Assembly: GCA_024760905.1 (NCBI GenBank)
Contig: CM045733.1
Location: 20,757,001-20,821,000, forward strand
Reading direction: 5' to 3'
Length of the DNA: 64,000 bases
Source of the DNA: Plotosus lineatus
Lineage: Eukaryota > Chordata > Actinopteri > Siluriformes > Plotosidae
The notes below the pieces were generated by a model that was given only the letters and a program-made list of their open reading frames with translations, was not told the origin of the DNA and did no database searches. Of the stretch, positions 9,901 through 56,200 are shown one piece after another (the stretch's first letter is position 1; the number at the start of each line of letters is the position of its first letter). The translations under genes were made by a program, and so were the position numbers.

Positions 9901-12682
9901 CACATAACATTAATATTATCTACCCAGTCATTCCTGCAAAAGGTTACACGGTGATATCTGTTACTAGATGTGCTGTGTCGAATCTGTCTCGTGGTATTGT
10001 GTGATATTCTTTGCGGGCAGCACAATGGTATAGTGGTTTAGTATGTCTGGCTCATATCAAGAAGGTCTTGGATTCGATGTTTGGGTGTTTCTCTGTGGAA
10101 TTTGTATGCTGTCTTCTTGCTTGCATGGGTTTCCTCCTGGTACTCTGATTTTCCTCCTTTTGGTCCAAAACCATTTGCCATCGGCTAATTGGCTGCTCTA
10201 AATTGCCACTACGTGCGTGTGAGAATGGTTGTATCTGTGTTGCCAGCTGTTCAGGGTATACCACACCTTTGCCCAGTGTTACCTTCCAACGACCCTAATT
10301 GAGTTAAGCGGTTTAGCAAATGAGTGAGTGAGAGCATGTTCTTTTTTTTTTTTTTTAATTTTGTTGTCCAACTTGATTTTACACTCGTGTTGTCATCTCA
10401 TTTCATGAAACAGTTCTGCATGATGATAACTCATGCAGGTTTCACACGCACATAAGTGTACCGTTTATACACATTTATGTTCCTGCCTGGAGGGCAGCGG
10501 TTTCTTTAACTTCTATATCCACCTCCTAGATCTAACAACTTCTGCCCTACAGAATGTCTCATAAAAGCTTCATCACTAACCCTTTGTTTTAGTGATGGAT
10601 TTATCAGGATCACACTCCTACACAGTCCCTAACATTATGCAACAAATGATATAACACAGAGATGCACACATACGTGCTTCCTTAAAGAGAAATCTAACAT
10701 TCAGTGCTGGTTGAGTTTATTTCCATAACAGGTGAGAACTCAAAAACATAGTTGTACCTTGACTTAAGAGGGACAGCACATGTTAGAGGTATTGGAGACA
10801 AAGTCAGAGAGGCTAGATTGAAATGGTTTGGGCATGTACAAAGGAGGGCTAGTGAATATATTGGTAGTAGGATGCTGAGATTGGCACTACCAGGCAGAAG
10901 GCCCAGAGGAAGACCAAAAAAAGATATCTATGGATGTGGTGAAGGAGGACATGAAGGTCATTGGTGTAAGAGAAGAAGGTGCAGAGGACAGGGTGAGATG
11001 GGGGCAGATCATTTGCTGTGGTGACCCCTGAATGGAGCAGCCGAAAGGAAAAGAAGAGACCTTGACTTAAGAGTGTCTTTTATATAGAATTTTCCATGAT
11101 ACGAGCTTCGATCAGCACCAAAAATCTGCCCCGTCCAATGAGCAAAATTTTGATTTACAAGCTCTGCTGGGGAAATGACTTTTCCGGGCCCGTTAGCCTT
11201 GTATTCTTCTGCGCTCAGAGAATGCCTTGTACAGTGCTTCTCAAGTATTCTGTGTGATGCCCCCTATAGGAAGAAAAAAATTAACCCCCCACCCCAGCAG
11301 CACACACACGACTATAAATAGTGTTTACCTCACTTCATATCGTTTGCTCGGTGCTTTTTCCCTTACAGTATAGCTCAACAGAGTGGCATTGCCATCTAGT
11401 GTAATTGCGCATCCTCTACAGTAGGTGGTAGTGGCGCTCTCACTCTGTCCCCGACACCATAGGGAACACAGTGAAAGCGCCACTGTAGATGATGCGCAAT
11501 TACACTTAATTCTAGTACAGTATGGTAAAAAAGCATGTTCCAAAGGGTCATACATACCATGCACCCCACTATTTGAGAAGCACTGGCCTTTCCTCGCTGG
11601 CATTTGTAGCATGCACATACACAAAATTCTCCTCCTCCTCTGTTGCGCACCACCTCATGCCTGCCCACGTGGCAGTCGATGATCGGAAGGATTAGTTGAC
11701 TTATTGTTGTATTATTATTATTTATTATTATTAATGTTAATGTACATGCATTCTTCTTCTTTTCTACGCTTTGCAAAAGCCAGCAATGGTTCTTTTACAT
11801 GAACCTCTCACCATAGACAGTGAGAGACATGGCCGGCCTTTGATAACCCAATTAGCTGCACTGGGGGTACAGTGACAACCTTGTAGGGAATGGGACTCGA
11901 ACCCCCAACCTTAGGATCAGCGATCCAGCGCCCTTTACCACCAGGCCACCACTGCCCTGATTAATGTTCATGTATTACATTAGTATAACAATAATTAATA
12001 TTTATTGTTTTTACATGTTTAATATATTAGGTCGAATATACATGTTTGTGTCAGGTTATGTGTGTTTGGGGGGCGGGTGGGGGGTGGCACAAATTAATTG
12101 GTCTTCTATTACTGCCTATGGGAATTTTTGTTTTATCGAAAGAACATTTTAACTTACGGGCTTGCCCTCGGAACGGATTAATTTTGTAAGTCAAGGTACC
12201 ACTGTATGTAGTTTTGACAAGGCCTCTCTGTATTTGTTCCATTTAGCCCATTAGTTTAAGTCTCTTTTGCGGAGACAACAGATCTAAGAGGGAAACCTAG
12301 GCATCCCTCTTTCCAGTTACCGATTCTAGCTCCTCCTGGGGGCTCTTGAGGGGCTCCCAAGCCATGCAGGGTGATATAATCCCTCCAGTGAGTACTGGGT
12401 CTACACCGGGGCTTCCTCCCAGTTGGATGTGCCGGAACAGCTCTAACAGGAGGCATTCTTATCAGATGTCCGAGCCACCTCAACTAAATTCTTTCCTTGT
12501 TTAATAGTCATTTCTTATTATTACCACAAATATATAGATTGAATATAACACCATAACTTGTAAATTGTTCTCATCTTTAGGGATCTGATTAAGGTACTGA
12601 AATGGTACGTGGACCGCATCATTGAAGCTGAACACCAGGAACATATCCAGAGAGTACTTAAAGTAGGAGTTTACACAGCTTC

Positions 12683-18900: not shown

Positions 18901-20606
18901 ACTTTGCAGCCTACTCTTTACGAAAGTCAGCAATGGTTCTTTTACATGCCTCTCACCATAGACAGTGACAGACATGGCCCGCCTTTGATAACCCAGTTAG
19001 CTGCACTGGGGGAGACAGTGACAACCTTGTGGAGAGTGGGACTCGAACCCCCAACCTTTGGATCAGCGATCCAGCGCCCTATACCACTAGACCACCACTG
19101 CCCCACACTTATATGCATTTACCACTATAAACCAATAAAACCCCAAACGTTCTGCTGCTTTGGAGATTAATAGACCCAGTTACCACAATATGGCCCTTAT
19201 CAGAGTCACTCATATCCTTACGCTTTCTCATGTTTCCTGATTTCAACACATCAACTTCTAAATTGACTTGTTCACTTTCTGCCTAATACATCCCACTTGT
19301 TGGCATGTGCCACTGTATGGTGAATGACCCCACCAGTGTTGTTCATGTCACCTGTCAGTGGTTATAATCTTTTAAATTTTATGGCTGTTCTGTGTGAAAT
19401 GGTCCCACTTTCTCTCTGTTTTTTTCTTGGTAGGTTCTTTGTTGAATAGTACAAAATTACTGTGGTCCACAAAGGTATCACTAAAGATTTATGTGACTAT
19501 ATGTTTAAAGTGCATCGATCAGCAGATGGATATAAAAGAATTGCAATTACAGTTAATGTCACTGACCGCTGTTAGGCCCATCATTAAGAAGTGGATTTTG
19601 ATAGCAGTGGAATGAGGGGATCATTTGGCAAGCTGCTCAGAGGTCAGTGAAAACCTTTAATGAGCTCCAAGAATTTATGGCAGTCAGTACACACACTGAA
19701 TATTATGACCCTTTCGATACTGATGAAAAAAATGAGGAGGATGTCCAAGATGTTTGTGTTTGTGAAATACCAAGCATTCCAGATGGCTCTCATTAAATGC
19801 CATGATTGCTGAATATTGATTCAGTGCCAACACAAGCATCACTATTCATACCTACAAAAGAGGTGGCATCCTTTTTGGGCTCTATTTTCTTTGCTGTCAT
19901 AAGGGTGGTTTTCTTCTGTGACCTTTTTTGGTACATGCTGTTTTTTGCTGGAAAGAACATAGGCGTTTTGAGCTTTCAACATAGCAGCAATATTAATCAC
20001 ACCTTTTGAACCAAGGAATGTGTCAGGAAAATGAGGATCGATGTCAGTAAATGGCCCAGTTATTGGTCTGATCTCAGTCCATTATAAGGCTGTGGATTGA
20101 CATTGATTTACCACCTGTCAGTCTGACTCAAGCGGTAATACTACTGTACATGTTTAAGCGTTGATGTTGCCGTCAAAGAAACAAAAGGGCACAAGGTTAA
20201 AACAACTCTAAGGTCGCGTGTTGAAAACTCATTAATATACTAGCCTCACTGGAACCCAGCACTAACTGCTGTGTGTCAGCAATAGTGTATTGGTATAGTT
20301 TTTTAAATGTCTCACCATTTCAGAACATAACTGTTATTAAACATGCGTTTAACCCCCTCGATTAAAGGACTGCGTGGTACAAAGCAAATGTGACGGGACT
20401 GATGTCTATTTCCTCAAGAAGACTTAAAAGAAGAATTTTACCAAAAGATAGCAATTTTTGCAATATTTTTGAGAGGAAACTGTCATATTTATTGTTGGTA
20501 AGATTTGTTCTCTAAATTATAATGTGTGAAATGCCTGACATGATCTGGACTGATTTTTTTTTTTTGTGTGTGTGTGTGTATATTTTAGCATATTTGAAGG
20601 TGAATT

Positions 20607-23600: not shown

Positions 23601-26600
23601 GATGCCCTTCCTGTCACAACCCTTTAGCAAGGGACAGAAACACGCTGACGGCTTTGCAGCTACTCTTTACGAAAGTCAGCAATGGTTCTTTTACATGCCT
23701 CACACCATAGACAGTGAGAGACATGGCCCGCCTTTGATAACACAATTAGCCGCACTGGGGGAAGAATGACGACCTTTGTGGGGACTTGAACCCCCAACCT
23801 TAGGATCAGCGATCCTGCGCCCTATCCACTAGACCACCACTGTTCTACAACAGGTGTATATTACTCGTTGTTTGATGGCAAGTGCACCTTCCCAAGAAGA
23901 TGCAGGTAAATGTGGCCTTCGGTGAATTATAAGTTCTTTTTATATTCATGTTTATTTTGAAAGCTGTAAATTAAAGAGGGAATTTGTATAACTAGCCACC
24001 CCTCCATTGGTATGAAAGCAATAATGACTGCTGTTTTTCCCGTCCTCTGTCAAATGTTAACTTTCAAACATGGTCAACTATGGCTGAACAGTGCATGGTA
24101 AGCCATTTCACCAGTTATACCAAAGGGATCCAAGCGCTACAACACCAATAACAGAAGCGTGTAGACTGAAAGCTAAAACATGTTGAAAAATAAACCACAT
24201 TTATGCAAATTCAGCAATGGTTAACCTGTGAGCCTTTCAGCCCACACTGTATAAGACAAATTTATTTTAGAAGATGAATTCTAGATTCATTCCAACCTCT
24301 TTACACGATAACATGTTTGGCAACTCCGCAGTATAGTATCAAGTAAAGTATTTTAGTACAAGATGAATGAACTTACTAATATTACTTGTATGTATTTTTT
24401 TTAGCTACTACGTACTCATTTACTCATATGACGAATATATAACCGAATAGTCCTATGAGGATGATGGTGAGACGGGTGCCCATCTCAGCCAACACTTGAT
24501 GAAGGCAGGGCACATCTGAAAGAGTTCACCAAACTGATATTTTTCTGGTTTCATACAAATCTTTCCTTTCGACTCTGGTTTATACAGTGGTATTGCATCT
24601 AACGAGTGTCCCTTATAACGATTCTTCCATGATACAATCTTCGAACCCACCAAAAATCTGCTCTATCCAACAAGTGAAAATTCACTTTATGAGCTCTCCT
24701 CGAAATGGCTTTTCCAGGCTGATTAGCCTCGTATTCTTCCACGTGTATTTCTCTGCGCTCAGAGAACACTTTGTACAGTGCTTCTCAATTATTTTCTGTG
24801 ACGCCCACTCTCGGGATGGGGGGGTGGGGGTGAGACAACATTTCACCTCCCACTCCCTCCCAGCGCCTTGTGCGTGACTATAAATAGTGTTTACTGCACT
24901 TCATATCGTTTGCTCGGTGCTTTTTCCCTACACCATAGTGTGACAATGTATATTCGCAATTCCATTTAATTCTAGCACAGTATGGCAAAAAATCATGTTC
25001 CCCAGGGTCATACGCACCCCCTAGGGCATCACACCTTGGGGGGCGCATCCCACTACTTGAGAGGCACTGACCTTGTGGGAGCTCACCACGAGCCTTTCCT
25101 CGCTGGCATTCGTAGCATGCACATGCACAAAATTCTCCTCCTCTGTTACGCACCACCTCATGCCTGCTCACGTGACATCTTCGGCGCAGTCGATGATTGG
25201 AAGGGTTAGTTGATTTATTGTTTATTCTTGTTTTATTATTTATTATTAATATACATTTTATTATTGTTTTATTATTTATTATTAATATACATGTGATATT
25301 ATGAAATATATTAATATAAATATTATCTTTAATATATTAGGTCAGATATATGTGGTTGTGGCAGATTATACGGGTTTGGGAGGGGGTTGGAACCATTTAA
25401 TTGGTTTTCAGTTATTTCTTCTGGAATAATTGTTTGATCTAACAAACTTTTTGGCTCACGAGCTTTCCCTCAGAACAGATTAAATTCGTTAGACAAGGTA
25501 CCACTGTATGAAGATTTCTTTCTTATGGTGTCCGAGAGTTTTTCCTTGCCATTGAGCTCAGGTATCGTATCTCAGACCTCCTTGGTATGAGGCAGATATG
25601 CTCACCAATGCATTACTATGCTGCTTGGAAAGAATACTGAACTAATTATCTAACTGCACATTGACATCCAATACCAAAAATAAATTTGACACTACAGCAA
25701 TTCTAGTCCACATCACCGTGTAACCTGCAGAAAAGTGTGGGTAGATAATGTTATGTGCAAGTTTGAAAACTTCACCTTGCGCATGATGCCATTCTGACAT
25801 AAATCAGTTAAATTTATTCTTATAGCAATGTACCTCAGCTCTTTTGCACCACACAACACTCACACCTAGGAGCAAATTGGAACAGACTTCTTCTTCTTCT
25901 TTTCCTTTCGGCTTTTCCCTTCAGGGGTCGCCACAGCGAATCATCTGCCTCCATCTCACCCTATCCTTTGCATCTTCTTCTCTTACACCAACGACCTTCA
26001 TGTCCTCCTTTACCACATCCATGAATCGTCTCTTTGGTCTTCCTCTAGGCCTTTTGCCTGGTAGTTCCAGCCTCAGCATCCTATTACCAATATACTCACT
26101 ATCCCTCCTCTGTACATGTCCAAACCATCTCAATCTAGCCTCTCTGACTTTGTCTCCAAAACGTCTTACATGTGCTGTCCCTCTGACGTACTCATTCCTA
26201 ATCCTATCCATCCTCGTTACTCCCAAAGAGAACCTCAACATTTTCATCTCTGCTACCTCCAACTCTGCCTCCTGTCTTTTCCCCAGGGCCACTGTTTCTA
26301 ACCCATACAGCATCGTTGGCCTCAACACCGTTTTGTACACTTTTCCTTTCATTTTTGCCGATACCCTCCTATCACACATCACACCGGACACTTTTCTCCA
26401 ACCATTCCAACCTGCCTGCACACGCTTCTTGACCTCTTTTCCACACTCGCCATTGCTCTGGATTGTTGAGCCTAAGTACTTAAAATCCTCCACCTTTCTT
26501 ATCTCTGCTCCCTGTAATCTCACCGTTCCTCTTTGGTCCTTGGCATTCATGCACATGTACTCTGTCTTACTGAGGCTAATCTTCATTCCCCTCCTTTCCA

Positions 26601-29054
26601 GGGCATACCTCCACCTCTCTAGATTTTCCTGCACTTGTTCTCTGCTCTCACTACAGATTACAATGTCATCTGCAAACATCATAGTCCATGGGGAATCTTG
26701 TCTAACCTCGTCTGTCAGCCTGTCCATCACCATAGCGAACAAGAAGGGGCTGAGAGCTGACCCTTGATGCAGTCCCACCTCCACCTTGAACTCTTCTGTC
26801 ACACCGACAGCACACCTCACCACTGTCTTACATCTCTCATACATGTCCTGCACCACTCTAACATACTTCTCTGCCACTCCAGACTTCCTCATGCAATACC
26901 ACAGTTCTTCTCTCGGCACCCTGTCATATGCTTTCTCCAGATCCACAAAGGCACAATGCAGCTCCGTCTGACCTTCTCTGTACTTCTCCATTAACATCCT
27001 CAAGGCAAACACTGCATCTGTGGTGCTCTTTCTGGGCATGAAACCAAACTGTTGTTCACAAATGCTGACTTCTGCCCTTAGTCTAGCTTCCACTATTCTT
27101 TCCCATAACTTCATCGTATGGCTCATCAACTTTATCCCTCTGTAGTTGCCACAACTCTGCACGTCTCCCTTGTTCTTAAAAATGGGCACCAGCACACTTC
27201 TCCTCCATTCCTCTGGCATCCTCTCACTCTCTAAGACCTTGTTAAATGTTCTTGTCAGAAAATCTACTGCTACCTCTCCTAGACACTTCCATACCTCCAC
27301 CGGTATGTCATCAGGACCAACTGCCTTTCCATTCTTCATCCTCTTCAATGCCCTCCTCACTTCACCCTTACTAATCTTTGCTACTTCCTGGTCCTCAACA
27401 GTCACCTCTTCTACTCTTTTTCTCTCTCATTTTCCTCATTCATCAGCTCTTCAAAGTACTCTTTCCATCTTCCCAGCACACTTCTGTCATCAGTCAATAC
27501 ATTTCCCTCTCTGTCCTTTATCAATCTAACTTGCTGCACGTCCTTCCCATCTCTATTTCTCTGCTGTGCCAACCTGTATAAATCATTTTCTCCCTCCTTA
27601 CTTTCCAGCCGAGCATACAAGTCATCAAACGCACTCTGTTTGGCCTTTGACACTGCTACCTTTGCCTTACGCTGTGTCTCCCTGTACTCCTGTTTACTCT
27701 CTTCGGTTTTCTCAATGTCCCACTTCTTCTTAGCTAATCTCTTCCTTTGTACACACTCCTGCACTTCCTCATTCCACCACCAAGTCTCCTTATCTACTTT
27801 CCTTCCAGATGACACACCAAATATTCTCCTACCTGTCTCCCTGATCACATTCGCTGTAGTTGTCCAGTCATCTGGAAGCACTTCCTGACCACCCAAAGCC
27901 TGTTTCAACTCCTCCTTGAAGACAACCCGACACTCTTCCTTTTTCAACTTCCACCACTTTGTCTTCTGCTCTGCCTTTGCCTTCTTCACCTTCCTCACCA
28001 TCAGCATCATCCTGCACACCACCATCCTATGCTGTTTGGCAACACTCTCACCCGCTACTCCTTTGCAGTCACTGACTTCCTTTAAATTACATCGCCTGCA
28101 CAAGATGTAGTCTACCTGTGTGCTCCTACCTCCGCTTTTATAAGTCACCCTATGCTCCTCTCTCTTCTGGAAGAAAGTATTCACCACAGCCATTTCCATC
28201 CTTTTTGCAAAATCTACCAACATCTGTCCTTCATGCTCCTGTCCTGGATACCAAACCTACCCATCACTTCCTCGTCCCTCTGTTTCCTGCACCAACATGT
28301 CCATTGAAGTCTGCCCCAATGACCACTCTTTCACCTCTGGGGTACTCTGCATCACTTCATCTAACTCCCTCCAGAATCTCTCCTTCTCTTCTCGCTCACA
28401 TCCTGTCTGTGGGGCATAAGCACTAACAACATTGACCATCACACCTTTAATTTCTAACTTGAGACTCATCACTCTGTCTGACACTCTTTTCACTTCTAGA
28501 ACATTCCTGGCAAACTCCTCCTTCAAGATGACTCCGACTCCATTTCTCTTCCCATCCACACCGTGATAAAACAGCTTAAACCCTGCTCCTATGCTTCTAG
28601 CCTTGCGACCTTTCCACCTGGTCTCCTGAACACACAGTATGTCCACCTTCCTCCTCTGCATCATGTCAGCCAGCTCTCTACCTTTTCCTGTCATAGTTCC
28701 AATATTCAAAGTCCCTACTTTCAGTCCTAGACTCATGCCTTTCCTCTTCTCTCTCTGGCAACGGACACGCCTCCCGCCTCTCCTTCTTCGACGTCTTCGA
28801 CGTCGAGCAAATTGGAACAGACAATCAGCTAAATGTGCTTGTCTTTGCACTGTGGGAGGAAACCCATGCAAGCATCGGAAAAACATGCAAATGCTACATA
28901 GATATGTCTGAGCCCAGGAATCGAACCAAGGACCTTCTTGCAGTGTGGCTGACTTTCTAAGCAGTACGCCACCGTGTTATACCTATTATAGTCTAAAAAG
29001 TGTCTCATGAATAATAGTGTTGAATGGAAGTGTACAATCATTTGTTCTCTCTAT

Positions 29055-30116: not shown

Positions 30117-30184
<68 letters not shown>

Positions 30185-33100
30185 TTTCTGAGTAGATCCT
30201 TCCGTAGGAGAGTGCTCAATACTTTTTGGTAGAGCAAAAAAAAATATATATATATAGTGTGTGTGTGTATTTAGTATATTAAATACTAGTCCTTCTCAAA
30301 AAATTAGCATATTGTGACAAAGTTCATTATTTTCTGAAATGCACTGATAAAAATTAAACTTTCATATATTTTAGATTCATTGCACACCAACTGAAATATT
30401 TCAGGTCTTTTATTGTTTTAATACTGATGATTTTGGCATACAGCTCATTAAAACCCAAAATTCCTATCTCAAAAAATTAGCATATCATGTTCAGGTAGTC
30501 TAAACGAGCTATTAACCTAATCATCTGAATCAACCAATTAACTCTAAACACCTGCAAAAGATTCCTGAGGCTTTTAAAAACTCCCAGCCTGGTTCATTAC
30601 TCAAAACCGCAATCATGGGTCAGACTGCCGACCTGACTGCTGTCCAGAAGGCCATCATTGACACCCTCAAGCAAGAGGGTAAGACACAGAAAGAAATCTC
30701 TGAGCGAATAGGCTGTTCCCAGAGTGCTGTATCAAGCCACCTCAGTGGGACGTCTGTTGGAAGAAAAAGTGTGGCAGAAAACATTGCACAACCAGAAGAG
30801 GTGACCGGACCCTGAGGAAGATTGTGGAGAAGAGCCGATTCCAGACCTTGGGGGACCTGTGGAAGCAGTGGACTGGGCTACAGGTGCCGCATTCCCCAGG
30901 TCAAGCCACTTTTGAACCAGAAACAGCGGCAGAAGCGCCTGACCTGGGCTACAGAGAAGCAGCACTGGACTGTTGCTGTGGTCCAAAGTACTTTTTTGGA
31001 TGAAAGCAAATTTTGCATGTCATTCGGAAATCAAGGTGCCAGAGTCTGGAGGAAGACTGGGGAGAAGGAAATGCCAAAATGCCTGAAGTCCAGTGTCAAG
31101 TACCCACAGTCAGTGATGGTCTGGGGTGCCATGTCAGCTGCTGCTGTTGGTCCACTGTGTTTTATCAAGGGCAGGGTCAATGCAGCAAGCTATCAGGAGA
31201 TGTTGGAGCACTTCATGCTTCCATCTGCTGAAAAGCTTTATGGAGTTGAAGATTTTCATTTTTCAGCACTACTTTTTACTGACCATGGTATTATTGTGCT
31301 CAATTGGCCTGCCAACTCTCCTGACCTGAAGCCCATAGAGAATCTGTGGGATATTGTGAAGAGAAAGTTGAGAGACACCAGACCCAACACTGTGGATGAG
31401 CTTAAGGCCGCTATCGAAGCATCCTGGGCCTCCATAACACCTCAGCAGTGCCACAGGCTGATTGCCTCCATGCCACGCCGCATTGAAGCAGCCATTTCTG
31501 CAAATGGATTCCCGACCAAGTATTGAGTGCATAACTGAACATAATTATTTGAAGGTTGACTTTTTTTGTATTAAAAGCACTTTTTTTAATTGGTCGGATG
31601 AAATATGCTAATTTTTTGAAACAGGGATTTTTGGTTTTTCTTTACTTTTTTTGCCAAAATGATCAATATTAAAGCAATAAAAGGCTTGAACTACTTCAGT
31701 TGTGTGTAATGAATCTAAAATATATGAAAGTCTAATGTTTATCAGTACATTACAGAAAATAAAGAACTTTGTCTCAATATGTTAATTTTTTGAGAAGGAA
31801 TAGTATTATATTTATATAATTTCATACAAGTAAATTTGGCGTAGACTAGCGTAGAGACGAGCTAATTCGATTTCGTTTTCAACTCAAGTCGTCTCTCCTG
31901 GAACCAAACCACGACGTAAGACGTGGTGTACCAGTACTGGGGACGTTTGGTGGTGGATTTGTAGAGACATCGTTAAAAAGGAAGGCAGACTATCTGGACT
32001 CATTAGTGTCACACACTCACTTCACTTAGTCCCTAACATCCGAGGATGTCGTTGGGGCGCCTTCATGGCGAGACTTGGGCTGATTTGGCTTGGCGGAGCC
32101 CATCCCTCTCCAGGCCGTGGAAACACGCTGACGGCTTTGCAGCCTACTCTTTACGAAAGTCAGCAATGGTTCTTTTACATGCCTCTCACCATAGACAGTG
32201 AGAGACCTGGTCTGCCTTTGATAACCCAGTTAGCTGCATTGGGGAGACAGTGACAACCCTGTGGGGACTCAAACCCCCAACTTTAGGATCAGCAATCCTG
32301 CGCCCTAACCACTAGACCACCACTGCCCCACTCATTAGTGTAGTAACAGTATTACTTGGACGGAGTCATATGTTGTTTATATGTTTATTGTCCACTCCAA
32401 GTTTAAAACCGACGTGGCTTGTCAGTTATTCGGTGTCACAGTCATGAAAGCATGCAGACGTTTATACAGACTGTTAGATATAAAACTCGTGTTTTCCAGG
32501 ATGAGAATGTACATGTTGTTCAGTCTGCATTTATTTACCCACATGACAGATGTACCTCATCAGTTCATTCATTTATTGGTTTATTTATTATCAATTAGAA
32601 CATTGTTTAGAGTTACTGGTTTAGATTACTGACTTGTCTCTATATAGGTTTGCTGATAGGCAGCTACGATCAAAAATTAGCTGTGGGTGTGGCTGAGCGT
32701 TTCGGAATTGAGCCAATGCAGCTCAACACATGGAATCATTATCTTAGTATCTAATTGAATGGGTTTTTTTTTGTTTGTGTTTGTTGACGCTGGGTTTTGA
32801 TGTTGGTCCATGTACCTTGTATTTCAGGGGGAGCTTGTGTCATGTCTTTTGGCTCTTCTGAAACAGATGGGTGATCAACACTACCAGCAACATCTTAAGC
32901 GTTTCACCAGTAAAGATGAGCTGAGGGTGAGAATGGCACAAGAATGATGCTTTTTATGAACAAAAGTGCTCCTGCAACAGAATTTACGAGCAACAACTAA
33001 AATTAAGGCAGTATAGGTACAGGGTGACCCAAAACTCTCACACATTTCAAATGTGAATAAGAAAGGTCAAAGATAATCAAATTAATATGTGCGCACATGA

Positions 33101-38107: not shown

Positions 38108-41100
38108 TATATATATAGTTATTTTGTTGATATTAATAGCACAGGAAGGTTTCGTCACTTAAAATTTTTCCATGTATAATATCTGGTTGATGACTCTAGA
38201 AGTGCTGGGAATATTATCAAATATAGTGTGCAAATTACATATGTCTCAATACTCACGATACCTGGTGCGAGAATTCATTTGGATATAAAGATGTAAGCGC
38301 GATCTCGAAAACAAACACACAACATTATACATAATATTTAAAGATACGATTTTGTGTCTGATTAAGATTTGATTTTTTTGTCAAAACAAAATTCATACCG
38401 GATCGGTCGAGGCCCGGGTTAACAACGACCGCCATCAGTGCTGTCAACCAACAGGGTGCTGATGGAAATTGGAAGTTGAAGTTGGTCATCAAAGAAAGAG
38501 AGGTGGGAGGCGTGTCCGTAGGCAGAGAGAGTAGAGGAAAGGCGTGAGCCTAGGACTGAGAGTAGGGACTTTGAATGTTGGAACTATGCAAGGTAAAGGC
38601 AGAGAGCTGGCTGACATGATGCAGAGGAGGAAGGTGGACATACTGTGTGTTCAGGAGACCAGGTGGAAAGGTAGCAAAGCTAAAAGCTTAGGAGCAGGGT
38701 TTAAGCTGTTTTATCAGGGTGTGGATGGGAAGAGAAATGGAGTAGGAGTCATCTTGAAGGAGGGGTTTGTCAGGAATGTTCTAGAAGTGAAAAGAGTGTC
38801 AGACAGAGTGATGAGTCTCAAGTTAGAAATTGAAGGCGTGATGGTCAATGTTGTTAGTGCTTATGCCCCACAGGCAGGATGTGAGCTAGAAGAGAAGGAG
38901 AGATTCTGGAGTGAGTTAGATGAAGTGATGCAGAGTACCCCCAGAGGTGAAAGAGTGGTCATTGGGGCAGACTTCAATGGACATGTTGGTGCAGGCAACA
39001 GAGGGGACGAGGAAGTGATGGGCAGGTTTGGTATCCAGGACAGGAACACAGAAGGAAAGATGTTGATCGATTTTGCAAAAAGGATGGAAATGGCTGTGGT
39101 GGTGAATACTTTCTTCAAAAAGAAACAGGAGCATAGGGTGACTTATGAAAGCGGAGGTAAGAGCACACAGGTAGACTACATCTTGTGTAGGCGATGTAAT
39201 TTGAAGGACGTCAGTTACTGCCAAGTAGTAGTGGGTGAGAGTGTTGCCAAACAGCATAAGATGGTGGTGTGCAGGATGATGCTGATGGTGAGAAAGGTGA
39301 AAAAGGCAAAGGCAGAGCAGAAGACAAAGTGGTGGAAGCTGAAAAAGGAAGAGTGTCGTGTTGTCTTCAAGGAGGAGTTGAAACAGGCTTTGGGTAGTCA
39401 GGAAGTGCTTCCAGATGACTGGACAACCACAGCCAATGTGATCAGGGAGACAGGTAGGAGAGTACTTGGTGTGTCCTCTGGAAGGAAAGTAGATAAGGAA
39501 ACTTGGTGGTGGAATGAGGAAGTGCAAGAGTGTGTACAAAAGAAGAGGTTAGCTAAGAAGAAGTGGGACACCGAGAGGACCGAAGAGAGTAAACAGGAGT
39601 ACAGGGAGACACAGCGTAAGGCGAAGGTAGCAGTGTCAAAGGCCAAACAGAGGGCGTATGATGACTTGTATGATAGGTTGAACAGTAAGGAGGGAGAAAA
39701 TGATCTATACAGGTTAGCACAGCAGAGAAATAGAGATGGGAAAGACGTGCAGCAAGTTAGAGTGATAAAGGGCAGAGAGGGAAATGTGTTGACTGATGAC
39801 AGAAGTGTGCTGGGAAGATGGAAAGAGTACTTTGAAGAGCTGATGAATGAGGAAAATGAGAGAGAAAAAGAGTAGGAGGGGTGACCGTTGAGGACCAGGA
39901 AGTAGCAAAGATTAGTAAGGGAGAAGTGAGGAGGGCATTGAAGAGGATGAAGAGTGGAAAGGCAGTTGGCCCTGATGACATACCAGTTGAGGTATGGAAA
40001 TGTCTAGGGGAGGTAGCAGTAGATTTTCTGGCAAGAATATTCAACAAGGTCTTAGAAAGTGAGCAGATGCCAGAGGAATGGAGGAGAAGTGTGCTTGTGC
40101 CCATTTTTAAGAACAAGGGAGATATCCAGAGTTGTGGCAACTACAGAGGGACAAAGTTGATGAGCCATACAATGAAGTTATGGGAAAGAATAGTGGAAGC
40201 TAGACTAAGGGCAGAGGTCAGCATTTGTGAAGAACAGTTTGGTTTCATGCCAAGAAAGAGCACCACAGATGCAGTGTTTGCTTTGAGGATGTTAATAGAG
40301 AAGTACAGGGAAGGTCAGAAGGAGCTGCATTGTGCTTTTGTGGATCTGGAGAAAGCATATGACAGGGTGCCGAGAGAAGAACTGTGGTATTGTATGAGGA
40401 AGTCTGGAGTGGCAGGGAAGTATGTTAGAGTGGTGCAGGACATGTATGAGAGATGTAAGACAGTGGTGAGGTGTGCTGTCGGTGTGACAGAAGAGTTCAA
40501 GGTAGAGGTGGGACTGCATCAAGGGTCAGCTCTGAGCCCCTTCTTGTTTGCTATGGTGATGGACAGGCTGACAGATGAGGTGAGACAAGAATCTCCATGG
40601 ACTATGATGTTTGCAGATGACATCGTGATCTGTAGTGAGAGCAGAGAACAAATGGAGGAAAATCTAGAGAGGTGGAGGTATGCCCTGGAAAGGAGGGGAA
40701 TGAAGGTTAGTCTCAGTAAGACAGAATACATGTGTGTGAACGACAAGGACCCAAGAGGAGCGGTGAGGTTACACGGGGCAGAGATAAGGAAGGTGGAGGA
40801 TTTTAAGTACTTAGGCCCAACAATCCAGAGCAATGGAGAGTGTGGAAAAGAGGTGAAGAAGCGCGTGCAGGAAGGTTGCAATGGATGGAGAAAAGTGTCC
40901 GGTGTGATGTGTGATAGGAGAGTATCGGCAAGAATGAAAGGAAAAGTGTACAAGACGGTGATGAGGCCAGCGATGTTGTATGGTTTAGAAACAGTGGCCC
41001 TGGGGAAAAGACAGGAGGCAGAGCTGGAGGTAGCAGAGATGAAAATGTTGAGGTTCTCTTTGGGAGTAACGAGGATGGATAGGATCAGAAACGAGTACAT

Positions 41101-44100
41101 CAGAGGGACAGCACATGTTAGATGTTTTGGAGACAAAGTCAGAGAGGCTTGATTGAGATGGTTTGGACATGTACAGAAGAGGGATAGTGAGTATATTGGT
41201 AGTAGGATGCTGAGGTTGGAACTACCAGGCAGAAGGCCCAGAGGAAGACCAAAGAGAAGATTTATGGATGTGGTGAAGGCGGACATGAAGGTCGTTGGAG
41301 GAAGAGTAGAAGATGCAGAGGATAGGGAGAGATGGAGGCAGATCATTTGCTGTGGCGACCCCTGAAGGGAACAGCCAAAAGAAAAAGAAGAAGATTAAGA
41401 TTTGATTTTTTTTCACATCGACATATAATAGAGATTAGCAGGGGAAAAATAATAAATTGAATAAGTTAAATTATTTTTTACTGGCACTTTTGCCAGGGCT
41501 TCAGCGGATCCATTAACCAGATAACATAAAATGAGTGACCTAATGGGAGGAAACCAGATTTCCCAAAGGACGCCCACATGAGCATGGGGAGAACTTGCAA
41601 ACTCCACATAGAAATGCCCTCATCAAGCCCGGGACCTGAACCCAGGGTCTTGTTATGATGCAAACATGCTAACCATAACACTACTGTATCGCTGTCATAC
41701 TCAATAACAAACCAAAAATATGAAGCAAGAAAAAGAAAACACCGCAATTAATGTAAAAAAAACCCCAACAGAACACAAACCGTGTGTTTTTATATTTCAA
41801 TGAATATTTTTCCTGCTTTGCATGAAAATAGCATTTAACCCATCTATTTGAGAGAAAACACGAACACAACAAAAGCCTTTGTCTTCTGATAATTTTATTT
41901 TATCGCAAATCCAAATGTCTGATGTATTTCAAAAACAGTATACCGACACCAAACTATTTGCATGGCTATTCCAATGCTTTTGTCTGGATTTTATCCTTTC
42001 AGGGTAAACATTTAGAAATGCATCCATTGCTTAGCAATCAGAGATATGTACATTTAGCTGTGTGAGATTCTGTGCTTGTTATTCATAGTTATCCCTGTCA
42101 GTGCTGTTGGTATCAAATTTATTGTATTTCAGGTTTGTGAATGTGTTTTACACAAAAGTTCCTGCGTAGAAATTTATAGAAGAGAAAATCATTGCTTAAG
42201 ATGGTTAGCCAGAAATGTTTGTATGACTTTCTTTGATGTAGGAACAGAACACACTTGATTACTTACTTGATAATAATATAATAGGAATTTTTTCCCCTTT
42301 AATTGGTCCAGTAACTGTGATAAGAAGTTATAGTTAACATTAGCTTTTAGCATGCAGCCCTTCCACTGTCCATATATGGCACCAGACACATGCCTTTATC
42401 TCAAACCACCATGTACTGGGAGTTTAGAGGTAAACTGCTGGCAGTATTAGAGGTTGTACACTTATTGGTTCTGATGGAGAACGCCTACAATGTGTAGTAC
42501 AGGGATCCCTCACTTTCCGCGGTTAATTGGGACCGAGATCCCCCTGTAACCACCGAATTCCGCGAAGTAGAACCCCCCCCCCCCAACTGACATATACATA
42601 CATGTATATGTGTATATAATGTCAATAAATACATATTCAATGCAAGAATGCTTATAATAACAATTAAACATTAAAAAAAATGCATAAGATGTAAGTACAA
42701 TATAAATACACACATACAGACGTGTGCGCATGCACGCACTCAGATGCGCACCTCACATAAAAATCTAAGTAGTTTTGATGAGAGATTTTGGGTTATATTT
42801 TGTTTTGTGTTTGTTTAGGGTTCTTTTTTTTTTTTTGCATAATTGGCCTTGTTTTTGTGGCATTTTCCTTTCAACCTTTTCCCCTATTCTTTCTTAATTT
42901 CCTTGTCTTTTAATTCGATGTATATTAAAAACAAAAACGCGATACACTGAAGCCGCATGAATTGAAGTGGGAAGTAGCGAGGGATCCCTGTATATAATAA
43001 TCTAATATTGGGATATAGCATATTTACCTTAAGTGGATTATGAGCTCCTTCTGCGTCACCAGTTTGTGTTTAACTGTGTGTGTGTTTGGCTCCAGTTTTT
43101 GAGCACATAGCCTCTGGATATATCACAACTACATTTTTACTTTTCTGTTTTTTTTTTTAAACTGATGCCAAACAGAAGATTCCCCAAAATATAACTTTTC
43201 TTTCATATACACATGCTATTTAAAGCTGCCTTAACCTGCTGTCTGCCTGTCATTTTTAATTAATTTTTTTCAAACAAACAATTTCTGATATCAGCACAGA
43301 GTTTTGCTTTTTTTCTGTCAAAATCTCTGTTTTGCTCAAGCTCTGACCTCTTTTTTTATCTCATCTAATACTAACAGTACTAACCATGTGACTACCTTGA
43401 ACAAGTGAGTATTTCTGACTTTAATCGGATAATCTGACTTTGTCTCGTCTCTGCTTACCTGGAGTAGAATTCCACTGTTCGGTCCATATCCTAGGTAAGA
43501 CACATTTGTCCCCGTTCCTGTGTTTATATCTGTGAGCAGGGTGTGAGTGCATGGTTTCCCTCTGACTTGTGAATAATTCTTACCGGGAGATTGTTTGTGT
43601 TCATGAAACAATTAAATAATCAATGATTTTTTGCTTTTTTTCTTTGTTTATTGTCTTAGTCTTTTAAAGAAGATTGAGAGAGAGACATGGAGAGAGAGCG
43701 GAATCTCATTAATTGCGACAGTTACACGTCTAATGGAGAGACTGCTCGATTACAGGTGAGTACTCACACACACAAAAACAACTTCTGCCAGATGAATTCT
43801 GAAATGTAAATGGTTTTAAAGGGCTTTTTGTTCATGCTTTTGAATATTAATGAGTTTGTGAAGTTTTAAAGGCAACAAACAACAAACATTATCAGTAGAT
43901 TAAAATTCAATATAGAAATCCATGATCAAATTACAATTTCGTTGGGTCATATTTATGCAAGCAGGGCATTGGTGGTAACGTGGTAGATTACTGATCCCAA
44001 GGTTGGGGATTGAACAGTTGTCTCTGCTGTCCCCACAGTGCAGCTAACTGGGTTATCAAAGGCTGGCCATGTTGCTGACTGTCCATAATGAGAGTCTGTA

Positions 44101-48586: not shown

Positions 48587-51375
48587 AGGAAGAAAGAACG
48601 TGTGTGTGTTTAATACACATTTATTAAGTAACCTTACTACCTTTGGACGGCTTCTAGTTCTTGTGTCTCTTTTTTCCTTTCAAGGTTGTTTGTAATCTTT
48701 GTGCCAGTTGCTTAGAAACATTTGCATCTCATCACTTCAACTTCATCGTCTACTGATCAAAATATCAGTTGGAGATCGTCTTTTCATTAGTTACCCATCA
48801 CAACAAAATGGCATTTACATAATGAGCACCCTCATCAGCAGCTTGAATGAAAAGAGAACCTCAGCGCTCCCACTGCCTCGTCTCCTTCTGTACTTCTAAA
48901 TCAAGCCATGTGTGTATCACTGCTGTAAGATTAGGAAGCAGCAGGGAAGAAAACATTTTGTTTAATTAGCATTATGGCAAAACACTCTAGCTACATTGTG
49001 AAACCTTTTTCTTCGCAAATAATTGTCTTGCTCGTCTGCTGCCCCCCACTGGAAGTTAAGATTGCTGCTTACATGTTGTGACACCTGTTTTATTTGTTGT
49101 CCTTAGTGTTGGGAGAATGGCATCCTCCTGTGTCGGGAGTTGGCTGATCAATATGAAGCACACTATGATTACAGGAACTTGAGTAAAATGAAGGTAGTAA
49201 TTTTCCTCTGTGCATGATTAGATTTAAAATCGAGAGCTGATTATTGTACCCTGTCTCAGATTCATGTGCGCTGACATGCTTCTTCTGAACTATCCAGACG
49301 ATGGAGGCCTCTCTGTATGATAAAATCATGGACCAACAGAGATTAGAGCCCGAGTTCTTCCGAGTGGGCTTCTATGGGAAGAAGTTCCCCTTCTTTTTAC
49401 GGGTATGTGGTAATTCCTTTCAAAAGTTGTGAGTGGTATTTTCATAAAGGTTTGAATATACAACTTCAAAACCCCGATAAGACATAAGTAGACTGGGTAC
49501 TGCATATTTTTGTCGACTTTCAAGTTTTTTTTATGGTGAATGGAAAAAAACCCCCGGGAAATTCTGAAATAAACACGAATAATTTTTATCAGTTTAAGAT
49601 GGAGTGTTTGGAATTTTATTTTTTTGTTTTATATTTACTGCTAGGCTTTTTACCCAGATGGTTGTCTGAGAGCCTGTTTTAATTACTATAGAGAGAACGA
49701 CATAGGCTATAAACATGTTTTTGAACATGGTTATGAACTTGTATCCCATGTTTTTAATACATATTAGTTAGTCGTAGATTCCTTTTGAGTCCACTTGATG
49801 GCACTATTCCCCACTATGTATGTGTGATTATGGTGTTTGTGTATATTTGCATGTGTGTGAACTTTCAGAATAAGGAGTTTGTGTGTCGTGGTCATGACTA
49901 TGAGCGTTTGGAAGCATTCCAGCAGCGCATGCTCAATGAATTCCCTCATGCCATTGCCATGCAACATGTTAACCAGCCAGACCAGACCATCTACCAGGCT
50001 GAGGCCCAGTGTATCCTTCTACTAATGCACACATCCACAAACAAAGTAATGACTCGGAAATGAAAACTCTGCTTTATTTATGAGCGTTACATGTGACAAG
50101 ATGTTTGTATGCAGTTATTAATCTTAGCTCTGCTTGTGGTGTTTTTTCCGGTGTGAACAGCACTGTGGATGAAGGAACAGGATTTTGTGCAAGCTCAGGA
50201 CTCCTTTTGTAAATACGCATCTGTATGGTGGCAGAAAATCGATTTTGTCCCACTGTGACTGCGAACTGGCTCCAGGAGACGCCAGGCAGTGGACACAATC
50301 TTGCACGGTTGGTGGGGTAAATACGTGCAAGACTAGGGCATGCTGAATGTGGGTCTTTCTCTGGAGTGCAATTAGAGCGGACATCAGCGGTCAAACTGAA
50401 TTAGCCTAGTGCTTTGTTATCCTTGCAAGCAATTAATCAGTACCCTTCTTGGTTTGTCGCCATACTTAATTCATATTTCAGTGCTGATGAGTTCTCATGG
50501 ATGTGCTCAGTGACCCAAAGGCCACTAAAATTATACATTTTGGAGGATAGGACAGTATGCATTTCGGTGTATAGCTTGTTTGTGTAAGGATTCTCTCTCT
50601 CTCTCTCTCTCCCTGTCTCTCTCTCTATCAATCTATCTACCCATCTGTCTATATATATATATATATATATATAATATAAAAATATACAGTGGTGCCTCAC
50701 CTTATGAAATGAATCCATTCCAGACCCTTTTTCTTAACCTGGATTTTTCGTAAATTGAACCGCATTTTACATGTAAAACGTGTGATTCTTTCCAAGGCCC
50801 CCAATACTAGCCCCTAAACACTTTTAAAATGATAAAAGAATACCTTTTAAGACCTCCTTCTTCTTCAATATCGTACCGATGGTAGACGGGTTTGGCCATA
50901 TTCCTTTGCAATATCACCGGAAATCACACGTGCGTGCGTGTTGACCATGTCTTCTTAGCAGGGTTATAATCTTACAAATGTTTATGGAAGGTTAAAAGCA
51001 ATGAGCACACTCAAAAAACTCATGAAACAACAGTAACTCTGTCCTTTACACGAAAACCATTTTGGGAGATGCAACTCCATAATAGCTAATAGGAGCAAGC
51101 TGCGTCATCCCTCCTAGCCAATGGGAGACCAGCGGGGCGGGATATTGGAAGATCGTCAATGGGAGAACAGCTCATGCATTGTTTGAATGGCGCATTTTAA
51201 TGTCTGAATGGCGTGTTTGGCGCGTTTCGTAAGGAGACCTTGTTTCTTATACAGAGACAAAAAATTTTTCGAAAATGTTTTTCGTAACCTGGATTTTTCA
51301 TTTGCTGGGACTATCATAAGGTGAGGTACCACTGTATGTTTTTTTTGTGTATGTATGTATATATATATATATATA

Positions 51376-51420
<45 letters not shown>

Positions 51421-52581
51421 GTATACATATACAGTGATACCTCTGCTCACGAACATAATTGGTTCCCAGAAAGTGTGTGTGAGGCGAAAAGTTCGTTTTC
51501 CGAACATTTATTTCCCATAAGAAACCATTAAAATGAGAATAATCCGTTCCCAGGTCCCCATAAAACATAATTTTCTACTAAATAAGCCTTAAAACTACAC
51601 AAAAATATACCTTATTTTATGTATAATAAATGTGCTATTGTATTGTAATTAAAGAAATAAACTGTACTATATAATAAAGTGGTTTTATTTACCTTTGTGA
51701 TGGTAGTTGATGGCTTGATGGAATGGAGTGGGAGGAGGAGGGAGGGAGGGACATACTGTTTGGAAGGAGAGTTTGGAAACGCCTACTGTTTGGAAACACG
51801 CATAGCCACACACGCACCCTTAATAGCTTCCTTGTTCTTAAGGATGGTGGTAGACTTAGCGTACTGGTACTGGGACGCTGAGTCACACAAACGCACACCT
51901 CGTTCGTGTTTTTCAATGATCTCCGCCTGTGGTGGGGTCTTTTTCGGTCCCATAATAGCAAAAGTACACTCAATATGGTCCAAAATGTCGAGCAAACACA
52001 AACCACTTCCGCATTCAAAGAAAGGGGTGTGACGAACTGTGACGCCGTGAACGTACGTCAGCTTCTCGTGGCCGCCACCGTGGCGCTGTTCGACCGCGTG
52101 GTTTGATTCGTCCGCCGAAAACTAGTTCGTCAGCAGAGACAATATGCTCGCAAATTTAATGTTCTTGAGGCGAAAAGTTCGTGAGCTTAAGCGTTCGTCA
52201 GCGGAGGTTTTACTGTATATATAAAATCGATAAAAATAAAAGGACAGGACAAACACTTTCTATTGAAACTCCATTTATCACTACAGATCTGTTTCGAGGG
52301 GTGGTGAAACCATCCTCTCTCTTCAGGTGATTATAGAAGAATCTATAATCACCTGAAGAGAGAGGATGGTTTCACCACCCCTCGAAACAGATCTGTAGTG
52401 ATACTATAATCACCTGAAGAGAGAGGATGGTTTCACCACCCCTCGAAACAGATCTGTAGTGATAAATGGAGTTTCAATAGAAAGTCTTTGTCCTGTCCGT
52501 TTATTTTTATTGTTATTTGCTATACCAAAAAGTATTGAGCACTCTCCTACGGAAGGATCTACTCAGAAAATCCCCCCCCCC

Positions 52582-52626
<45 letters not shown>

Positions 52627-53172
52627 GTGGGGCCAATAAGTATTGGGCAACGTGAAAATGTGCAAGTTCACCCATTTAAAAAGATAAGAGAGGTTTGTAA
52701 TTTTCATCATAGGTACACATCAAGCTTGAGAGGCAGAATGTTAAAAAAAAATCTAGGAAATCACATTGTATGATTTTGAAACAATTTATTTGAGAAAATG
52801 GGAGTCCAATAAGTATTCAGCAGCTAGAAAACAAACATTATTTCGGCCCCCACTCGTTAACAGTATGAATGACACCTGTTTGAACTGATTAGATGCATAA
52901 GAGACACCTTCAAACCTGCACACAACTTCAAACTGTTAGACTGCAGTCTTCACCATGACCAAGACCAGAGAGCTTCCCAAAGACACCAGAGATAAAATTA
53001 TACAACTGCATAAAGCTGGGATGAGTCAAACTGCAATTGGTAAACAACTTTGTGAGAAAAGATCAACGGTTGGAAACATTATTAGAAAATGGAAGAGGTA
53101 TAGCATGTTTTGTATACAACATGTATATGTATATATACATGTATATACTGTGTGTGTGTGTGTGTGTGTCTG

Positions 53173-53241
<69 letters not shown>

Positions 53242-56200
53242 TGGATATATTACATTTGTACCAATGTATTCTATTTAAAAAGCTTTACCACAAAGTTTAA
53301 GTTTAGTCAAAATGCACCACAATCCTTGAGGAAAGTGGGAGGTTTTTTGGATATCACTGGCTAAAATGACCATGAAACTACTTTAGTGTAAAAGAGGCTT
53401 GAAAAATGGTGGGTCCAGCCAAGCAGTGCTAGGTGGTTTGGAGGGACCGTTGTGCAGGGTGAGACGAGTGCTTTTAAGATAGGTGGATCCTGGCCAGTGT
53501 TTGGGAGTGTAGTAACAGGATGGTATTGGGGAATTTGGGAAGGTTCAAATCAAGTTATGCAGCTCATATTGAAACAGATGTAGTGATTGAAGAATGGAGA
53601 AAGTAAAGGAATGATACATGTAATTGTCATCTTTGTCGCAGTGCTGTGAAAACCCACAATATAATATGACAAAGACCGAGCAATGAGCCTTGTGGGACAC
53701 CAGAGAGATCTCTCATTATTTACAAAAAAATACTTGGTAGACTTTTATTATTTCTTTGTCTTCTTCTTCTTCCTCTTCCTCTTCTTCTTCTTCTTATTAT
53801 TGTAAGAAGTAGTCACTCATGACAATTATATATTTTTTGTCAGAAAATGTATTTTTATTAAACTAATGCTAGGGAGAGGCGTGTTCAATATTTGTGAATG
53901 GAACCCTAATATTTTTTTTTAACCAATATGCAGTGATATGTACCTGTCTTCCATTCATGTTTTGCATTCAGTTTTGGGTTCAGTGATAAATTGATTATCA
54001 TTCTCGAGCTAGAACACATCTCCATAACAGACCTTGACACAATCCTGACTCAGACCTGCAAATCTATGCAGTGACACCCATCCCAGACAGCCAGGATGTC
54101 CTTCAGAGAGACGGTGTTCCAGACAACATCAAGAGCTTCTACAAAGTCAACAACATATGGCGTTTCCGCTATGACCGCCCCTTCCACAAGGGTACCAAAG
54201 ACAAGGAGAATGAGTTTAAGGTGACTGGCATTGCAGACTCTTGCTAGTTTCTCTGCCGTCAACCTGATTCTTTATCTCTTTTCTCATTTGGCTTCTTGGA
54301 TACGTCTGCCCTGTTTCCCCTGTATGTGACTTGGGTATTCATGCCTGTAATATGTGTGTGTATAGAGCTCAGGTGTGCTTTCATGTGTTGCATTATTCAC
54401 ACTCAGCCCAGTGAGGCTAATTAAAGTTTTAGAGGCCAGGAGACGGGCTCATTCCAAATATCATTTCTCTCATCTCATGCTCAGTAGCCGGCACAGAAAA
54501 TCACATCCAAAACGCGGATCGTATCTACAGCCGGGGTTAGATTTCCAGCGGCCTCTAGTGGGTATAAGGTTTGAAATAAACAGTTTAGCCTGCCAGATAT
54601 TACATTTTCTCTGACACTGAGGTGTGTTTCTCCCTGCCTCACTCATCACGAAGTAATATATATATATTTTTTTGAGAAATATCATTAAGAAGCTAACTTA
54701 AGATTAGATAATATTTAGACGATAAGATTATATTGGAGACAGCAGTTTCTTTGTGTCGTATCTTCAGTAACCAAAGTTCTTGGCGAGTTCTCCCTTTGTA
54801 ATATTCTTTATGCATTAGGTGAACCAAAGCCCAGGACACTTCCTGAGAAAGCCATCCAGAGTAAATTTTGAGGAGATGAAATTTAATATGTGAAGAGAGA
54901 CCCCTAATAAACCGAGGATAAACTTTTTTTGTTGTTGTTGAATAAAGTGAATGCAGTGCTCAGGGGTAGAAGAGGAAGAAGTGCTTTGTAAATGGCAGGA
55001 CCCCCATGGAATAATCCAGTCTCATGTACTTTGTTGCAGGGGCATTTAAACCTGTAACGTTTAATGATTGAGTTCACTTGGGATTCTTTTGAATCTACAC
55101 AGCTGTGTCTATGACTTTCAAAATAATAACTCGTGGTTTAAAAAAAGAAGCCAGCAATAATGTACAATACATTCTAATAGACACTACAAAGGACATTCAA
55201 TAAGCAGAACGCCATTTAATTGTAGCTGTCAAGTCAGCGATGATAATGAATGCGTAGGGAGTGATGTTATTGTATTTGAGTGTGAGTCATTGTAAGACTG
55301 TCAGTGTTATTAGCCTTTTATGATGCCTTGAGCTTGAGCGTACAAGCAGCTCACATCTTGGTGTGTGTTTGCTTTGGCCCACAGAGTCTGTGGGTGGAGA
55401 GGACCACGTTAACCCTGGTACAGAGTCTTCCAGGGATCTCTCGCTGGTTTGAGGTAGACAGGAGAGATCTGGTAAGAGAATTGTTCCACAACACCACGAG
55501 TCCTTATTTTCAAATTCTGTTCTAAACCACCACCATGCGTTTCAGTGGCCTGTCTGTAACTGCATTGTATTGTGGTGCAGGTGGAGGTGAGCCCGTTGGA
55601 GAACGCCATCGAGGTGATCGAAAACAAAAACCTGCAGCTGCGCACACTCATTACACAGTGCCATACGCGCCAAATGCAGAATATCAACCCGCTCACTATG
55701 TGCTTGAATGGCGTGATCGACGCTGCTGTGAATGGAGGCCTTGCTCGCTACCAGGAGGTTAGCATTAACCTTGTTAAAATTAGCTCATTTTCACTTGTGG
55801 GTTAATTATTTTTGGGTGATATCATCAAAGCATAGTTCAAGTGAATCTATTGTTGTGTTCAAAATGACCTGATTAATTGAGCATCCATTTAAATTTAAAT
55901 TTCAGATTTTAATTGTACATAGTATTTTACAATCGATATTGTCTCAAAACTGCCTTGCACGGTAAAACACATTTGGCAAATAATTTAAACTTATTATTTT
56001 TATGTATTTCTCTGTAAACGCTATACACACACTCCCCAACTTACGTTTTAGTTCAGTTCCGGATGGCGAACATAAGGTGAAAAAAAACAAAAAAAACATA
56101 AATTGTTACTGTATGTTCCAGTCACGTATGACGTTCATACTGTACTATACAGTATCTCATAAAGCACCCCTAAATCAATTATTATAAACATAACATTGTA

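Follow-up and report, generated by a model that had tools for sequence, protein, structure and literature searches.

Hammerhead motifs in a palindromic, probably Penelope-like element between DOCK-family exons of Plotosus lineatus

A stretch of 64,000 nucleotides from the fish Plotosus lineatus (assembly GCA_024760905.1, contig CM045733.1, positions 20,757,001 to 20,821,000 of the forward strand), hereafter the window, contains a 55-nt motif in three mismatch-free copies, two on the + strand (52348–52402 and 52409–52463) and one on the – strand (52331–52277). We consider it probable that these are type I hammerhead sequences within one short palindromic and most likely non-autonomous copy of a Penelope-like pseudo-long terminal repeat (pLTR) that lies between DOCK-family exons. 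The three exact copies had been described in the initial annotation of the window, and both the letters and a descriptor search confirmed them.

Results

Hammerhead motif and palindromic element

Every conserved core letter of the hammerhead is present in the motif (C3 U4 G5 A6 N7 G8 A9 and G12 A13 A14), as are the core pairs G10.1–C11.1 and A15.1–U16.1, with H17 being A. Three helices can be drawn around this core, as in type I hammerheads: an open-ended helix I of 5 bp, a helix II of 9 pairs with one A·C mismatch and one bulged A, and a helix III of 3 bp (ACA/UGU, loop GAUC). With core letters and helices found, the earlier claim that all conserved positions are occupied holds. The stem and loop of helix III spell out ACAGAUCUGU, which is perfectly palindromic over its 10 nt. 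Cleavage is predicted after 52397 in copy 1 and after 52458 in copy 2; the same two positions had been proposed before and were derived again here. The – strand copy (52277–52331) would appear in a + transcript as the antisense of the ribozyme. In random sequence with the dinucleotide make-up of the window, a strict descriptor (core, G10.1–C11.1, CGAAA, at least 4 Watson–Crick pairs in helix I and at least 2 in helix III) returned 5 rows in 5.92 Gb, and helix II was closed in none of the five.

All three copies are parts of a single, almost perfect palindrome that has a tail on one side only and extends over approximately 52229–52573 on the + strand, with borders taken from the inverted repeats, the letters and comparison with 20 other copies. 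An inverted-repeat search found inner arms at 52276–52337 and 52342–52403, 100% complementary over 62 nt around a 4-nt loop (52338–52341); these arms contain the – copy and the first + copy of the motif, respectively. An outer pair (52215–52336 and 52404–52525) is 93% complementary over 122 nt, and from it we delimited an outer left arm (52229–52275, complementary to approximately 52465–52511) and an outer right arm (52465–52510, +). The tail (52511–52573, +) stops near 52573 and is followed by simple repeats. With the copies arranged palindromically, transcription of either strand would yield a perfect antisense of the ribozyme ahead of the ribozyme itself. Rfam microRNA matches at the site were rejected, as all 28 of 28 rows lay below the gathering scores and reflect the long hairpin only. 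Directly adjoining the element is a remnant of what we take to be a Tc1-like transposon (approximately 52620–53105, +).

Both + copies belong to a 61-bp unit that is present twice with 100% identity (52343–52464, +; Tandem Repeats Finder and repeat search). In the searched genome (1.33 Gb, 30 contigs), the junction of the two + units matched once at up to 3 mismatches, namely at this site, whereas the motif matched 11,781 times at the same tolerance. We therefore take the tandem to be a private 61-bp duplication and not an array of the kind seen in Penelope elements or retrozymes, for which the initial annotation had considered it typical. Metazoan retrozymes are built of tandem monomers of ~150–450 bp, each with a hammerhead; the unit found here measures 61 bp, with a junction that is unique in the genome.

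Copies across the genome

The whole-genome pattern count that yielded 11,781 motif matches gave none for the reversed pattern, and a family 30-mer from the tail gave 9,336 matches at up to 2 mismatches, again with none for its reverse. As a DNA similarity query the tail found no match, probably since very common words were skipped, and the pattern search supplied the count. A query of 241 bases of the element had at least 80 matches (the best 40 of 748 candidates were scored). Among the 100 motif matches listed, all exact, 34 make up 17 pairs no more than 200 bases apart, each minus then plus; the pairs were counted from exact matches only, and mismatched partners fall outside that list. Twenty palindromic copies elsewhere (L009–L028) have loops of a few nt. 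The bases at the palindrome centre vary among them, and both orientations occur. In 141 arms selected for spanning the motif, the core was kept in 133, and core, helix I and helix III together in 119. The family is represented once more in the window itself, by a tail-only piece (30182–30252, –) that is 93–94% identical over ~70 bases.

Larger copies bear the same block beside an open reading frame (ORF), in one of them (L115) on both sides. The predicted fold of this ORF is that of a telomerase-like reverse transcriptase with a GIY-YIG endonuclease, the two hallmarks of Penelope-like elements. The second block was mostly inverted in the copies examined; pLTRs in direct tandem are a further feature of Penelope-like elements. 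A truncated hammerhead core also lies downstream of the ORF of a distant relative with 45% protein identity (L116); this was the one relative found in genome contigs, and none was found in viral contigs. At the start of the L116 contig (1–1500), part of the relative's own ORF is repeated in inverted, antisense orientation. Penelope-like elements in general are reported to bear hammerhead motifs, in forms described as devoid of loop I–loop II tertiary contacts (PMC6155905, PMC7761336). The block beside the predicted reverse transcriptase/GIY-YIG ORF thus supports the Penelope-like origin that had been suggested for the motif.

We also compared the 5′ starts of 29 tail-bearing copies with the predicted cleavage site. 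These came from 30 fetched loci (L032–L061), of which L046, identical within 60 bases either side and starting at –62, was left out; L057–L059, neighbouring tail-only copies at one place, were counted separately. Fourteen of the 29 start 57–62 nt upstream of the site, five between this cluster and the site, one at the site, eight beyond it and one further upstream. The cluster at 57–62 nt may mark where the template RNA begins. Insertion of an Anolis Penelope element in vitro is reported to proceed without need for cleavage (PMC11167929), and the copy ends observed here fit that report. It appears likely that the ribozyme is an inherited Penelope feature not required for insertion of the element.

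Predicted folding

Folding energies were computed as static values without tertiary contacts. For 52343–52468 alone, the minimum-energy structure is a double hammerhead (–38.1 versus –23.2 kcal/mol for two monomers) whose helix III pairs have a probability of 0.98. Over the whole element (52230–52510), the best structure (–199.0 kcal/mol) is a long hairpin whose loop contains copy 1; in an alternative at –193.7 kcal/mol the arm pairs with copy 1 and leaves copy 2 free. Imposing the canonical hammerhead fold on the free copy costs 5.0 kcal/mol for copy 1 (–194.0 kcal/mol) or 2.8 kcal/mol for copy 2 (–190.9 kcal/mol), and the double hammerhead in the same context reaches –119.8 kcal/mol. One ribozyme copy is thus predicted to be free in the whole element and the other locked by the antisense arm, while the double hammerhead formed via ACAGAUCUGU is predicted to be best only where that arm is absent. 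In ordinary palindromic copies, with their loops of a few nt, the sole sense copy would be locked. On these models we expect ribozyme activity to be weak.

Gene context and other features of the window

On the + strand, pieces of DOCK-family exons lie upstream (49298–50009) and downstream (55590–55757 and further) of the element. Their matches among solved structures are DOCK2 and DOCK5, those to DOCK2 at 6e-17 and 9.9e-26. The initial annotation had placed the tandem pair in sense orientation within an intron of dock4; sense orientation and the position between DOCK-family exons stood, and the name dock4 is a presumption. Elsewhere in the window, three matches to the tRNA family of Rfam just above threshold (11882–11955, 19028–19101 and 32261–32320, all –) are possibly tRNA-derived short interspersed elements. 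Long open frames lie at 38535–39872 (+), 39860–41149 (+) and 25924–27426 (–), and resemble the endonuclease and reverse transcriptase frames of long interspersed elements.

Discussion

The observations can be accommodated in the following scenario. A Penelope enzyme would begin reverse transcription in the tail and copy back through the ribozyme; at roughly half of the insertion events, the complementary DNA (cDNA) would fold back and copy itself, giving the inverted arm, and at this site a later local slip would have duplicated 61 bp. In the transcribed intron, the antisense arm may then pair with one ribozyme copy while the other stays free. The free copy would have to rely on a helix III of only 3 bp in the presence of a competing fold of the core, so that, for the monomer, slow cutting or none would be expected. 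It is a rather doubtful proposal, offered tentatively, that fold-back of the cDNA turned the ribozyme end into a self-complementary hairpin, that transcripts consequently carry an antisense lock, and that this site, the only copy found with the 61-bp duplication, has one ribozyme unlocked by it. If true, the unlocked copy would constitute a natural gain-of-activity test in a DOCK-gene intron.

A number of results weigh against hammerhead sequences in a Penelope-like copy. A covariance-model search had been named beforehand as the check that could overturn the hammerhead assignment, and the hammerhead families of Rfam 15 gave no match in the window at gathering score, none at E ≤ 10 on stretches of 361 and 78 bases at the site, and none in the ORF-bearing copy L115 or in L116, whose core is lost at the contig end; these searches were run without a positive control of the same type. 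The folding energy of one unit with its flank is ordinary (z = –1.21; 24 of 200 shuffles fold equally well or better), and the best fold of the monomer pairs C3–U4–G5 with CAG instead of forming helix III (–13.4 versus –10.6 kcal/mol). Changes in the selected arms amount to 10/1833 in the core versus 63/5640 outside (P = 0.03, or 0.08 without an A/G subfamily site), so the core is not clearly more conserved, in a test too weak to use. As to the Penelope-like origin, Pfam assigned no domain to the fish ORF pieces, a PDB sequence search with the ORF found no match, and the RVT_1 match in a 60%-identical homologue (P0048) stayed under the curated cut-off (25.9 versus 29.6 bits). The inverted arm lies directly upstream in only 14 of the 29 tail-bearing copies, and the fold-back and slip are steps that we infer, no intermediate having been seen. 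Finally, a looser descriptor run on 4.96 Gb of random sequence returned 222 rows with duplicates counted, so that a loose match alone is expected by chance at this genome size.

The Rfam result, the ordinary unit fold, the weak conservation test and the loose-descriptor count would all be in line with a motif that is merely hammerhead-like, in which the palindrome is what counts, the core letters having arisen by accident and been multiplied by a mobile element. We nevertheless regard such an accident as improbable: the strict form yielded five rows in random sequence, none with closed helix II, a hammerhead core recurs downstream of the ORF in the relative at 45% protein identity, and such motifs are reported from Penelope-like elements generally (PMC6155905, PMC7761336). 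The tight form of the motif is hard to obtain by chance and the loose form is not; hence the earlier statement that a chance origin is very unlikely is upheld for the former and fails for the latter. Rfam probably gave no match because helix II is long and helix III short. A covariance match is an aid to detection and not part of the definition of the hammerhead, which rests on core and helices, and we therefore overrule the miss; canonical and minimal forms have been scanned in the field with RNAmotif descriptors (PMC7229834). Across the genome, the hammerhead model RF00163 scored at three places, all below cut-off (73 of 122,561 candidates scored), which is uninformative since matches below cut-off also occurred in 11 of 14 control genomes.

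Alternatively, the tandem might be a working double hammerhead that pairs via the 10-nt helix III palindrome, cuts the DOCK-gene pre-mRNA and alters gene expression. The preference of 52343–52468 alone for the double fold, the sense orientation between DOCK-family exons and the reported finding that amphibian hammerheads with weak helix III cut better as dimers (PMC7229834) argue for it, but the antisense arm would be transcribed first, and in the whole element the double fold falls far behind the long hairpin (–119.8 versus –199.0 kcal/mol), which makes a functional dimer distinctly unlikely. A small DNA-transposon derivative with terminal inverted repeats (a miniature inverted-repeat transposable element) would likewise be short, palindromic and of high copy number. 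The tail of the element found here, however, is one-sided, copies end at many 5′ points, and larger ORF-bearing copies with a predicted reverse transcriptase largely contradict such an origin, for which we see hardly any likelihood. We thus retain the assignment to a palindromic Penelope-like pLTR copy with type I hammerhead sequences. Palindromic hammerhead-bearing Penelope copies in fish did not appear in the titles and abstract openings of the literature searched, a coverage that leaves out most subscription journals. The near-identical matches run into the thousands and comprise solo, inverted and one tandem form, so that copy ends can be compared with the cleavage site; one of 29 coincides with it here. 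In the same genome, one ribozyme is available for side-by-side assay in a locked, a single and a double form.

Comparison with known hammerhead systems

Hammerheads of Penelope-like elements were reportedly described by Cervera and de la Pena in 2014. As far as the sources outline them, those of the Anolis element Poseidon (PMC11167929) and others covered in reviews (PMC6155905, PMC7761336) resemble the present case in that the hammerhead is located in the repeated end of an element with reverse transcriptase and GIY-YIG domains, and also in insertion beside AT-rich DNA, a tail, dispersed copies and little helix III. Unlike them, the motif reported here has a helix II of 9 pairs and a helix III of 3 bp that, together with its loop, makes up a 10-nt palindrome; it is found in very many short palindromic copies, and is in tandem only privately. 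The hammerheads of amphibian satellites and axolotl retrozymes are described as sharing the weak helix III and a palindromic loop suited to action as a dimer, but they reside in tandem repeats of ~330–350 bp (PMC7229834), whereas here a single 61-bp duplication lies inside a palindrome. Similarly, in the Aedes aegypti hammerhead, stem and loop III are reported to pair fully between two copies to give a 10-bp stem (PMC3088659); the host is a different one, and the excerpts of that report make no mention of a palindromic element such as the one that holds the motifs in P. lineatus.
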